A DNA stretch of 64,000 nucleotides, taken from Kozakia baliensis. GTDB lineage: Bacteria; Pseudomonadota; Alphaproteobacteria; Acetobacterales; Acetobacteraceae. The notes beneath the pieces are model-generated. The model made no database searches. It saw only the letters and a program-made list of their open reading frames with translations, and had not been told where the DNA came from. Positions 26,998 to 30,905 of this stretch are shown piece after piece. The number at the start of each line of letters is the position of its first letter. Position 1 is the first letter of the stretch. The stretch lies in assembly GCF_001787335.1 (NCBI RefSeq), contig NZ_CP014674.1, positions 628,501 through 692,500 of the forward strand, given 5' to 3'. The position numbers were made by a program, and so were the translations under genes.

Positions 26998-27412
26998 CGC
27001 GAGGCTCCTTACGTCGGCGGCATGGACTGGCGGAACGGCTCCATCTTCAATCTCTGCCACAAGTGAATGTTTGATTAATGATATGTCATACTTGGTATTT
27101 ATTCAACTTGATGTATCCACAATTAAGTGAAGAGCCGCTGATTTAATGTGCGGCAATTTTTTCTCTTAAAGCTAACCTTTGTTCAAATCGTCATTCTAAA
27201 AAATGGACAAAAAAGTAAATATTTTAGAAGATATGCTTAATACATAATTATCAAGCCCAAAAATAAGTAATATTAATGAACTCATACTTGTACGCATGGC
27301 CTTAACATTAAGCTATTCCCGTATTATTCGAGACTTTGATAAAAAAATAATGATTAATGTCTGTATCAGGTCGTTGAGATATTTCAATGACTCCATATGC
27401 AGAGAATCAATC
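26998..27412. other. AT-rich intergenic region upstream of the repeat-peptide gene
   Basis: About 415 bases without a convincing gene, much richer in A and T than the flanking genes. It must hold the divergent promoters of the sugar transporter (minus) and the repeat-peptide gene (plus). A terminator-like hairpin lies at 27134-27162. I see no convincing sigma-70 box pair for the plus-strand gene. Confidence 0.6.
27134..27162 (+). terminator. Orphan terminator-like hairpin
   Basis: GCCGC pairs with GCGGC around an 11-base loop, followed by AA and six T. No plus-strand gene ends here. It may end a short transcript antisense to the transporter leader, or be a chance hairpin in AT-rich DNA. Confidence 0.45.
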
Positions 27413-27760
27413 ATGAACAAAAAAGCGAAAATTAACGCTATCGTTAAACTCTTTGGTGTTGTTGCTTCAATAGCGCCGCTGATGGCAAGCACCGCAATGG
27501 CGCAGCCGAATGCGGAAAAGCATGTGAATACGGCGATCCGCGTTGGGAATGAGCACCGGAACTTCCGTATCGGCACTACGCCTGTGACGGCTCCGGTTCA
27601 GCTTGCGGCGATCCGCGTTGGGAATGAGCACCGGAACTTCCGTATCGGCACTGCGCCTGTGACGGCTCCGGTTCAGCTTGCGGCGATCCGCGTTGGGAAT
27701 GAGCACCGGAACTTCCGTATCGGCACTGCGCCTGTGACGGCTCCGAGCTTGCTTGGATAA
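27413..27760 (+). CDS. Secreted repeat-peptide precursor (three 25-residue repeats)
   Basis: A 115-residue protein. The first 31 residues form a classical signal peptide (MNKKAKINAIVKLFG..., ending STAMA, cleavage before QPNAEK). A 9-residue spacer follows, then three almost identical 25-residue units built around IRVGNEHRNFRIGT and PVTAPVQLA; the last unit ends PSLLG. The core is basic and aromatic, with no cysteine. Upstream in-frame ATG codons exist, but only this one gives a signal peptide. The Shine-Dalgarno is weak (AGAGAAT). A strong terminator follows, so the gene is its own transcription unit. No known family is recognised. The layout resembles a precursor from which several copies of one peptide are released, but a repetitive structural protein is equally possible. 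Confidence 0.65.
   Translation: MNKKAKINAIVKLFGVVASIAPLMASTAMAQPNAEKHVNTAIRVGNEHRNFRIGTTPVTAPVQLAAIRVGNEHRNFRIGTAPVTAPVQLAAIRVGNEHRNFRIGTAPVTAPSLLG
27533..27757 (+). repeat. Three tandem 75-bp direct repeats within the peptide gene
   Basis: Units lie at 27533-27607, 27608-27682 and 27683-27757. Units 1 and 2 differ at one base (ACG to GCG codon). Unit 3 equals unit 2 up to its last 12 bases, which encode SLLG in place of VQLA. Near-identity at silent sites points to recent duplication or ongoing gene conversion. Because 75 is a multiple of 3, other frames also stay open across the array. Confidence 0.97.
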
Positions 27761-27793
27761 GAACAAACAAAAGCAAATGTTTTATGGTTGTGA

Positions 27794-27830
27794 GTGTCTA
27801 TGCAGAATTTAATCTGCGTAGACACTTTTT
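27794..27830 (+). terminator. Strong terminator after the repeat-peptide gene
   Basis: GTGTCTATGCAGA pairs with TCTGCGTAGACAC (13 base pairs with one G:U) around a 6-base loop, followed by five T. It separates the peptide gene from the diguanylate cyclase gene. Confidence 0.9.
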
Positions 27831-27926: not shown

Positions 27927-30905
27927 TTGTCTTTTTTAAGCTTCAGACAACAGGGAAAGGTATATTTTCTAAAAATTTTCTTTGCAAATGTATTGGCTTG
28001 GTATTTAGTAAGTACTATTGCTTCGGCTGAGTCGTTTCAAGTAAAGAATTATTCTATTCAAGATGGTTTGGAGAATCTTGTTGTTGATCAAATAACCCAA
28101 GATCCTACTGGCTATATCTATTTTTGTACGCAGCACGGGGTTTATTTTTATGATGGAAAAAAAATATTAAATTTAGGAAGAGAACAGGGACTTCCCATTG
28201 GCGGTTTTTCTTTTAGGATTGCTTTCGATCAAACTGGAAGGGTTTTAATACTCACTCCAAATCAAATTTTCATATCTACCAATCATACAGATAGCAGAAC
28301 ATCACCAATCTCTCTGAACTTTAGGAACGTCAAGTTATCTGGAATTCCTTTCTCTCAAGTAAATTTTAGATGGATTACGGTCAGAGGGAACGATGTATTT
28401 ATTGATGATGGTGGACAACTCGATTTTATCGATCTTTCCAAGGCGAACGACGAAACTGTTCAACGAGTTTCTGAATCTAAATTCTCATTTCTCCCTAAAC
28501 TAAACAATGTAATCAACATATTCTCAGAAGAGAAAAATTTTTGGATTATTACAGAAAGTGGCGATGTATATATCGAAGAATTGGGGAAAGTTTATAAAGG
28601 GAAAATACCTCGTGAGAATGGAGATCCACGTTGGCAAGGGTGGTACGTAGACGGAAAAGGAGAAGTATATTTATCTTCATTTAAAAATGTTGCATATTTT
28701 AGAGAAAAAAAGTTAATCTGGATTAAGCAAGTCCCAGGAAATTCGTGGAAACATGCTATGAATATTTCAGAAGCGCAAATTCTAGTTGATCGTAATGGCG
28801 ATATTCTAACCCAAGCTGGCAACAAAATTGCGATCAATCATTCCGGAATTTGGCTTCCATCATTAGGCTTTCAAAATATGGAATCCCAAATTCTTGCGAT
28901 GTTTTTGGATAAAGATCGTCAGCTTTGGTTTGGGACTGAAGGAACTGGCGCCTATAGATTATTAGGGTGGAGAATTTGGGAAAATTTCAACGAAGAAAAT
29001 CTTAAAACGCCTGGTAATATATGGCAGATTATTCCAATAAATAATGATTTTTCATTGCTATTTTCTGATAACGGGATGCTATCTATTGGGAAGGGTAGAA
29101 GCGTAACCTTATATGATAGAAGCGTTAACTATATTGGCACTATCGATCAAAACCATCGTATATGGCGTGTGATCAATGAAAACGAATTAGAGAATTTCAT
29201 TTTAGATAAAGAAAACAATATTTTAAATCGCCGTTCTTATAATACATCAAACATTATTTCATTATCTTTAGGAAGGTTGGCCGATAATACAGAAGTTATC
29301 TGGCTTGCAACGCAGAACGGACTGTTTTTCCTGCCATGCGATGCTCCGAGTGGAGAAACACCTCATCAGGTGATGGGAGACGATGGTAAGCCGTTGTTGC
29401 ATCTATATACTTTGATGCGAGATAATGATGGTTCAATTTGGCTGATGAAACGCGGAGAATTGTTGCATCGTCATATAGACGGTTCTTATGTAAAAGTAGT
29501 CTCGAAATGGCCGGTAGATAGTTTCGTCCCAATAACGATGACGCGTCGGGGCGATAACGAAATTTGGGTTGGGGGGGCAGGAGGCGGAGTGATGCGCCTC
29601 TCTTTGGATGGCGATCATCTTCTCTCGCTCAAGCAGTTTACAGAACCAGATATTCTTTCTAGCTCGGTTGCTAGTATTCTTGTTGATCGTCGCCAATGGG
29701 TTTGGGTCGGGACCGATCGCGGTATTTCAGTATTCGATGGGCAGCGTTGGGTATCTCAAAACACCAATGACGGCTTGATCTGGAACGATATTAGTCAAGA
29801 TGGATTGGCGGAAGGCGTGGATGGTACGATTTGGATTTCCACCAGTCGTGGCGTTTCTCATCTTCTGAAACCAGAAAGTGTTTTTCAGCACCAAACGCTT
29901 CGACCGGTCTTTAGTGAAGTTCGCCTCGGCAATAAGCTTTTGCCGGAACAGGCGGTTGACTTTAGCCGTCAGCCTCTCACGGTCCGCTTTGGCATTCTGA
30001 ACTTCGCCGCTCAGGCGAATGTTCATTTTCGCTATCGTTTGGAAGATGTCGATTCTGCGTGGGCGGATACCGCTTCTGGTGAGGTGCGTTATGCGTATGT
30101 GCCGCCGGGTCAACATAATTTGACGGTCCAAGCTTATGACACGATGCGTGGAGATCAGTCCGAGCCTATTTCGCTGTTGATACGAATGAAATATCCGTGG
30201 TGGCAATGGTGGACGGCCTATATAGCGTACGGATTAACCATAGTGACCTGCTTCTATGCGGTTATGAGATTTCGTTTTCGCTATCTCACCCGTCGCCAGG
30301 CAATTTTGAAAGAGCTTGTCGAGCAACGCACGAAAGAAATGCGTGCGGCTCAACAGGCTTTGGAAGTTCAAGCGCAGCAAGACGGTTTAACGGGCTTGTT
30401 GAATCGCCGAACGATAGAGGCCAACCTTTCTCGATTGTTGGCGCGAATGAGAGATCAAACGCGATCTGGCTTATCGGGAACGAATGTCACCGCCATTTTG
30501 ATGGATATTGATTACTTCAAATCAATCAACGACGAGTTTGGGCATCTTGTCGGGGATGAGGTGCTGATCGAGGTAAGTGCACGCCTACAAAAAGCTGTGC
30601 GGCTCGAAGATTTTGTTGGACGCTATGGCGGGGAAGAATTTCTTATCACGGTCTCCATTTCGGGGAGTGAAATGCGGGAACGTATCCAAGAGATCATGAG
30701 GAAATTAACAGATCTGCCTATTTCCACCCGAAAAGGCGAACTTGCGGTGCGTTGCAGTATGGGAGTGGCCGAAGCTGGCACGAACGAAGATTGGCAATCT
30801 CTCATCGATCGCGCCGACCAAGCGCTTTATCAAGCAAAAGCGGCCGGACGAAATCGGATTGTTTTTAGTGAACTAGCCCCAAATGGTGCGGACTATCCAG
30901 GCTAA
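27927..30905 (+). CDS. Periplasmic propeller/Y_Y_Y sensor diguanylate cyclase
   Basis: A 992-residue membrane sensor. After a signal peptide (FLKIFFANVLAWYLVSTIASA) comes a long propeller-type sensor with Reg_prop repeats such as YSIQDGLENLVVDQITQDPTG and LVDRRQWVWVGTDRGISVFDG, a Y_Y_Y domain (about 690-752; FRYRLEDVDSAWADT, YVPPGQHNLTVQAYD), one membrane helix (about 759-781), a coiled coil, and a GGDEF domain from DGLTG at 819. The active site is GGEEF at 901, and the inhibitory site RLED (892-895) is present, so it should make c-di-GMP under product inhibition. The start is TTG at 27927 with GGTGAAAG upstream. The 5' half is AT-rich and the 3' part has normal composition. The 3' end overlaps apaG by 41 bases. 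Confidence 0.88.
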   Translation: MSFLSFRQQGKVYFLKIFFANVLAWYLVSTIASAESFQVKNYSIQDGLENLVVDQITQDPTGYIYFCTQHGVYFYDGKKILNLGREQGLPIGGFSFRIAFDQTGRVLILTPNQIFISTNHTDSRTSPISLNFRNVKLSGIPFSQVNFRWITVRGNDVFIDDGGQLDFIDLSKANDETVQRVSESKFSFLPKLNNVINIFSEEKNFWIITESGDVYIEELGKVYKGKIPRENGDPRWQGWYVDGKGEVYLSSFKNVAYFREKKLIWIKQVPGNSWKHAMNISEAQILVDRNGDILTQAGNKIAINHSGIWLPSLGFQNMESQILAMFLDKDRQLWFGTEGTGAYRLLGWRIWENFNEENLKTPGNIWQIIPINNDFSLLFSDNGMLSIGKGRSVTLYDRSVNYIGTIDQNHRIWRVINENELENFILDKENNILNRRSYNTSNIISLSLGRLADNTEVIWLATQNGLFFLPCDAPSGETPHQVMGDDGKPLLHLYTLMRDNDGSIWLMKRGELLHRHIDGSYVKVVSKWPVDSFVPITMTRRGDNEIWVGGAGGGVMRLSLDGDHLLSLKQFTEPDILSSSVASILVDRRQWVWVGTDRGISVFDGQRWVSQNTNDGLIWNDISQDGLAEGVDGTIWISTSRGVSHLLKPESVFQHQTLRPVFSEVRLGNKLLPEQAVDFSRQPLTVRFGILNFAAQANVHFRYRLEDVDSAWADTASGEVRYAYVPPGQHNLTVQAYDTMRGDQSEPISLLIRMKYPWWQWWTAYIAYGLTIVTCFYAVMRFRFRYLTRRQAILKELVEQRTKEMRAAQQALEVQAQQDGLTGLLNRRTIEANLSRLLARMRDQTRSGLSGTNVTAILMDIDYFKSINDEFGHLVGDEVLIEVSARLQKAVRLEDFVGRYGGEEFLITVSISGSEMRERIQEIMRKLTDLPISTRKGELAVRCSMGVAEAGTNEDWQSLIDRADQALYQAKAAGRNRIVFSELAPNGADYPG

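Follow-up and report, generated by a model that had tools for sequence, protein, structure and literature searches.

Genetic linkage of a peptide signal and its receptor is a hallmark of Gram-positive bacteria and fungi. In the fungal alpha-factor-type prepropheromones, such as Saccharomyces MFalpha1, a signal peptide and a pro-region precede several spacer-separated copies of the peptide, the precursor carries Kex2/STE13-type sites and the receptor is a GPCR. The Gram-positive pheromone systems Agr, Com, Rap-Phr and SHP usually rely on single-copy precursors and on dedicated exporters or proteases. Among Gram-negative bacteria, the periplasmic propeller and Y_Y_Y fold is found in the Bacteroides hybrid two-component sensors BT4663, BT3049 and BT4673, which detect polysaccharide fragments and relay this via a histidine kinase and a DNA-binding regulator, and YfiBNR provides an example of a small periplasmic protein, YfiR, encoded beside the membrane diguanylate cyclase YfiN. 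We know of no Gram-negative system with multi-copy prepropeptides and of no Gram-negative peptide system that feeds directly into c-di-GMP via a propeller sensor. No account of such a precursor-sensor system turned up among 5.4 million open-access papers. Here we describe a locus of Kozakia baliensis in which a gene for a secreted, repeat-containing precursor is followed by a gene for a sensor diguanylate cyclase, and our analysis suggests that the pair constitutes an undescribed peptide-signal-and-receptor system in Gram-negative bacteria.

The repeat-containing precursor of K. baliensis

The window, by which we mean the whole 64-kb stretch of DNA that was analysed, belongs to K. baliensis DSM 14400, the sole Kozakia among the genomes compared. 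The original prediction of a signal peptide followed by three near-identical 25-residue repeats was borne out by reading of the ORF, Tandem Repeats Finder and codon usage (Table 1). As read from the sequence, the leader combines a basic n-region, a hydrophobic stretch and an AxA site, and a pro-region of 10 residues, QPNAEKHVNT, separates it from the units. Tandem Repeats Finder located the array at positions 27531-27745 (period 75, 2.9 copies, 99% matches), and no other tandem repeat of the window comes close to it in strength. Copies 1 and 2 differ by a single base, which changes a T to an A residue, and copy 3 equals copy 2 through base 63, beyond which APSLLG replaces APVQLA. The precursor frame has a codon-usage log-odds of +0.24, the same as the median of the window's true genes (+0.24). 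The remaining plus-strand frames score below zero, and the best of the minus-strand frames comes close to zero; minus-strand ORFs over the precursor were rejected on account of their poorer codon score. An RNA-structure reading of the repeat was likewise rejected, as the repeat folds more weakly than its shuffles (z +2.25). The G+C content of the repeat is 64%, compared to about 30% in the flanking non-coding DNA and 57% in the genome; between positions 27001 and 29300, the spacers and the N-terminal half of the sensor gene have a G+C content of 30-38%.

Table 1. Features of the K. baliensis locus and precursors encoded beside orthologous sensors in other Acetobacteraceae
Feature	Position	Strand	Description
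Precursor gene	27413..27760	+	115 aa: signal peptide, short pro-region, three 25-residue units
Sec-type signal peptide MNKKAKINAIVKLFGVVASIAPLMASTAMA	27413..27502	+	predicted cleavage after AMA; read from sequence
Unit 1 AIRVGNEHRNFRIGTTPVTAPVQLA	27533..27607	+	Tandem Repeats Finder and sequence comparison
Unit 2 AIRVGNEHRNFRIGTAPVTAPVQLA	27608..27682	+	Tandem Repeats Finder and sequence comparison
Unit 3 AIRVGNEHRNFRIGTAPVTAPSLLG	27683..27757	+	changed end; Tandem Repeats Finder and sequence comparison
Intrinsic terminator between precursor and sensor genes	27792..27827	+	15-pair stem, then T's
Sensor diguanylate cyclase	27927..30905	+	992 aa; next gene 3' of the precursor; proposed receptor
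Y_Y_Y domain of the sensor	30009..30143	+	residues 695-739; Pfam
GGDEF diguanylate cyclase domain	30372..30857	+	residues 816-977; Pfam
Precursor at L067			DPAISHHW, 8 copies
Precursors at L068-L071			DPxIFHHWP, 3-7 copies
Precursor at L088			DPSSRHEWP, 7 copies
Precursor at L096			AYRHGWPQEEIK, 4 copies
Precursor at L098			VASLRQWPAPNAIR, 12 copies
Precursor at L102			IRHPSETIALASLSAPAHVQ, repeated unit
Precursor at L074			INPNTLKDRPT, 7 copies; array ended by contig end
Asaia precursors at L075, L090, L093, L094			GPRPPxGxxxDPCxxxGxC, 3-6 copies
Asaia precursors at L081, L083, L084, L092			one C-terminal unit each
Precursor at L072			single unit SNIAHHYPG at end
Precursors at L095, L099, L089			single-copy, ending in one unit

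The strong terminator that had been ascribed to the gene is real (-23.4 kcal/mol, z -5.8). Hairpins comparable to it occur in the gap between precursor and sensor gene at L068, L069, L070 and L072; as the structure is clear only at these loci and in the window, we rejected it as a general feature of this gap.

That the protein belongs to no recognised family also held. Searches with Pfam and NCBIfam gave no match above cut-off, with PhnG as a sub-threshold hit in the former and nothing usable in the latter. No sequence relative of the precursor or its unit was found in 397 Acetobacteraceae genomes, in a collection of genome contigs comprising one genome for each of 84,980 species, or among viral contigs. 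Nor was there one in phages, with matches of E about 0.4 only, or in plasmids, where a single match (E=0.05) fell into a stretch of Enterobacter DNA without annotated genes. Weak matches to the unit in two genomes (G007 and G038) were dropped, being 27-29% identical and lying inside long ORFs. Thus, the search for homologues proposed along with the original prediction yielded none for the unit sequence; the position of the gene and its architecture, on the other hand, do recur in relatives, as described below.

The adjacent sensor diguanylate cyclase

The start codon of the sensor gene is uncertain and was set to the TTG at 27927. The protein comprises an N-terminal membrane signal, a periplasmic propeller sensor, a Y_Y_Y domain, a transmembrane helix and a GGDEF domain, and Pfam recognises Reg_prop (1.6e-10), Y_Y_Y (4.9e-6) and GGDEF (6.3e-42) in the one chain. 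Its catalytic motif is intact (GRYGGEEF, with RLED as the RxxD element ahead of it), as is the GGEE motif in every precursor-linked sensor inspected. Structural modeling by AlphaFold2 (pLDDT 84) followed by Foldseek placed the sensor closest, among PDB structures, to the domains with which two hybrid two-component systems of Bacteroides, BT4663 and BT3049, sense ligands in the periplasm, with a similarity that extends across the whole sensor (E 2.5e-38 and TM-score (target) 0.76 against 4a2l), and a sequence search also points to 3v9f and 4a2l. Its topology suggests that the sensor points into the periplasm, the compartment that a Sec-exported protein would reach.

A second homologue of the sensor diguanylate cyclase is present on the K. 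baliensis chromosome (L100, 1012500-1020500) and is split into an N-terminal piece of about 190 aa and a 681-aa remainder, with an IS5-like transposase reading frame between the two, so that this gene has apparently been interrupted by the transposase. No precursor was found upstream of it.

Precursors beside orthologous sensors in other Acetobacteraceae

In other members of the family, a small secreted ORF resides 50-270 bp upstream of the sensor orthologue on the same strand, with units that differ in sequence from that of K. baliensis and are present in 1 to 12 copies (Table 1). The hosts include A. siamensis, Asaia sp. W19, A. platycodi, Acetobacteraceae KSS8 and KSS12, and Gluconacetobacter takamatsuzukensis. 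About eight loci beyond the repeat-carrying ones encode single-unit precursors, and at six of these (L081, L083, L084, L092, L072 and L095) one unit of about 20 residues forms part of a product of about 70 residues. Within Asaia alone, copy numbers of 1, 3, 4, 5 and 6 occur; the Asaia units have two cysteines each, that of K. baliensis is cysteine-free and basic. Paralogous sensors of a single genome are accompanied by different units, as in the pairs L067/L089 (genome G220) and L098/L099 (genome G024). Many units follow a V/I/L-x-A or L-A element, examples being IALA|GPRPP and VQLA|AIRVG. When the precursors of four relatives were compared to Pfam, Stannin alone exceeded the cut-off, by a spurious match to a 12-residue repeat. 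Another secreted repeat ORF, with 5-8 copies of units like NSDSDPNDRPGRGRPTTG, was observed at L210 and L213 in Acetobacteraceae genus g28.

To quantify the association, a strict criterion was applied, which demands an ORF with a signal peptide (called by a simple home-made rule) in which 6 or more residues are repeated exactly and which ends no more than 300 bp upstream of the sensor. Of 40 sensor loci, 14 have such an ORF. No such ORF precedes any of the 121 other long ORFs in these loci (p=5e-10) or any of 59 homologous sensors outside the Acetobacteraceae (p=6e-7). Under a looser criterion, which accepts any ORF with a signal peptide according to the same rule, the counts are 25/40 and 23/121 (p=6e-7). 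Searches with the precursors detected them in 9/9 Asaia genomes, with every match below E=1e-3 at a sensor locus; in the HHW class, all matches below E=1e-9 adjoin a sensor. In Asaia platycodi (L240/L194), the assembly shows the sensor broken into two ORFs and the adjacent single-unit precursor intact. No dedicated protease or exporter gene was found adjoining the precursor and sensor genes.

Several sensors lack a partner of this kind. At eight Gluconacetobacter loci, searched as a whole and on both strands, a sensor is present but no precursor was detectable, and the same was true of nine sensor loci of another genus and a few others. A precursor was not detectable at L086, L101, L105 and L106; L103 and L104 each have a small secreted ORF in which no unit could be recognised. 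None of 13 further distant sensors, an independent set, has a precursor, and in the sensor tree most of these fall outside the precursor clade, the others grouping with precursor-less members. Thus, the sensor can exist without the precursor, and the simplest history is one gain of the precursor followed by some losses. In Duganella radicis (L129 and L135), the gene upstream of a homologous Reg_prop-GGDEF sensor gene encodes a PEP-CTERM protein and stops 5-7 bp short of it, so that a different secreted partner occupies the position of the precursor.

Selection on the units and divergence with the sensor

The K. baliensis copies are nearly identical as DNA, so that the locus in the window cannot by itself tell whether recent duplication or selection on the peptide lies behind this. 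That distinction is possible in the relatives, from which all data on synonymous and nonsynonymous differences are drawn. Summed over pairs of copies, the array of L093 has 53 synonymous and 0 nonsynonymous differences, that of L075 36 and 6; pS and pN are 0.54 and 0.014 for the core of L071 and 0.73 and 0.07 for L068. At these four loci and at L094, the units are constant as peptides while their DNA drifts. Between Asaia species the unit is 58% identical, compared to 18% for the 15 residues before it; spacers and pro-regions drift and the units are held. Judged by these comparisons, the units of the relatives' precursors are under strong purifying selection, and the silent bias between copies together with the conservation of the unit indicates that the unit is translated, that every copy counts and that a single copy is enough.

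In the sensor tree, all clear precursors belong to one strongly supported clade, and its sub-clades match the unit classes HHW/HEW, HHYP/HHFP, GPRPP, and RHGWP with LRQWP. Accordingly, unit similarity drops with sensor distance (Mantel rho -0.41, p=0.0002, for a thinned set with hand-picked unit boundaries). The match between unit and sensor is to be read as a correlation with phylogeny rather than as proof of binding.

Discussion

The original prediction of a multi-copy peptide precursor, possibly of a signal, has gained support from the adjacent sensor diguanylate cyclase and the equivalent precursors at orthologous sensors, and further from the purifying selection on the units and their match to the sensor phylogeny. 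With a probability of roughly 0.6, we infer that cleavage of the precursor yields several copies of a single peptide, which is the cognate ligand of the neighbouring sensor and sets the level of c-di-GMP. The comparison of loci shows the pairing itself, the Sec-type leader, the tandem or single C-terminal units, the selection acting on them, unit classes that follow the sensor clades, and an intact catalytic motif. The product of the small gene would be exported by Sec and subsequently cut between the units, giving rise to several copies of a short peptide which in K. baliensis would be cysteine-free, basic and centred around AIRVGNEHRNFRIGT. This peptide would bind the propeller sensor that the adjoining gene places in the periplasm, and it might also cross the outer membrane to act between cells; binding would alter the cytoplasmic GGDEF activity, either by activation or by inhibition, and hence the c-di-GMP level, the likely targets of which in acetic acid bacteria are cellulose or EPS and the choice between biofilm and motility. 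Copy number, from one to 12, might set the dose of the peptide, and peptide and sensor would diverge together into lineage-specific signals, as in pheromone systems. A wider reading, to which we grant slightly less than even odds, is that these loci represent a Gram-negative class of pheromones, in which Sec-exported tandem-repeat prepropeptides co-evolve with periplasmic propeller diguanylate cyclases, and by which acetic acid bacteria sense their kin through a lineage-specific peptide and set c-di-GMP, and with it biofilm, cellulose or EPS, and motility.

The main rival, which we consider unlikely but the most serious of the alternatives, holds that the small protein stays uncut and serves as a periplasmic partner of the sensor, a co-sensor or inhibitor as YfiR is for YfiN, its repeats offering several binding sites per chain, with no diffusible signal. 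Such a partner would yield the same pairing, co-divergence and selection data, it would meet the sensor in the periplasm, where both products reside, and it would agree with the lack of an adjoining gene for a processing protease. It is less readily reconciled with copy numbers that vary from 1 to 12 and include single-unit versions, with units that are held while spacers and pro-regions drift, or with the AlphaFold2 model of the precursor alone, which shows no confident fold (pLDDT 51). Both readings make the small protein the dedicated ligand of the sensor.

Single-copy versions, in Asaia and elsewhere, likewise argue against the repetitive envelope or matrix protein that had been named as the alternative in the original prediction. 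Surface proteins often have tandem repeats and a secretion signal, and matrix production is under c-di-GMP control, so that a structural or adhesion protein might have been kept by chance beside the enzyme which controls it; yet many relatives are products of about 70 residues with a single unit, about 20 residues long, the unit sequence tracks the sensor clade, and the Pfam and NCBIfam searches revealed no anchor or adhesin domain in the precursors, all of which renders this explanation improbable. Even less probable is a bacteriocin-like antimicrobial peptide secreted in several copies, with the sensor gene as its regulator: a small, secreted product, basic in K. baliensis, and the two cysteines of the Asaia units would fit, but no immunity or export genes were seen adjoining, the HHWP-type units are neither basic nor amphipathic, and the coupling to one sensor type is tight across genera. 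Finally, recently duplicated DNA in a functionless ORF, as the near-identity of the K. baliensis copies and the absence of any relative of the unit might imply, is hardly credible given a codon usage that fits a gene and relatives which share architecture and place and whose copies diverge synonymously, not nonsynonymously.

If the peptide-ligand reading is true, the acetic acid bacteria would offer dozens of naturally occurring pairs of ligand and receptor whose specificity codes can be read, and the large HTCS-type sensor fold would gain its first peptide ligand. Biofilm, cellulose and EPS production would then become open to manipulation, both in acetic acid bacteria used by industry and in Asaia, a symbiont of mosquitoes.

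Among described systems, the K. baliensis pair is best likened to a pheromone and its receptor with a precursor of the alpha-factor type, although by sequence it belongs to no such family. Shared features are the signal peptide, the pro-region and several spacer-separated peptide copies, their varying number and the co-divergence with the receptor; the K. baliensis system differs in being bacterial, in sharing no sequence and no recognised Kex2/STE13-type sites, and in its proposed receptor, a propeller diguanylate cyclase instead of a GPCR. With Agr, Com, Rap-Phr and SHP it has in common a secreted-peptide gene adjoining that of the receptor and a fast, matched divergence, but those systems employ other receptor families and occur in Gram-positive hosts. 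YfiR is a folded, non-repetitive and conserved protein, whereas the precursors of the acetic acid bacteria consist of repeated units and form no common family. The sensor itself most closely resembles those of the Bacteroides hybrid two-component systems, from which it is set apart by its GGDEF output and by the linked peptide gene.
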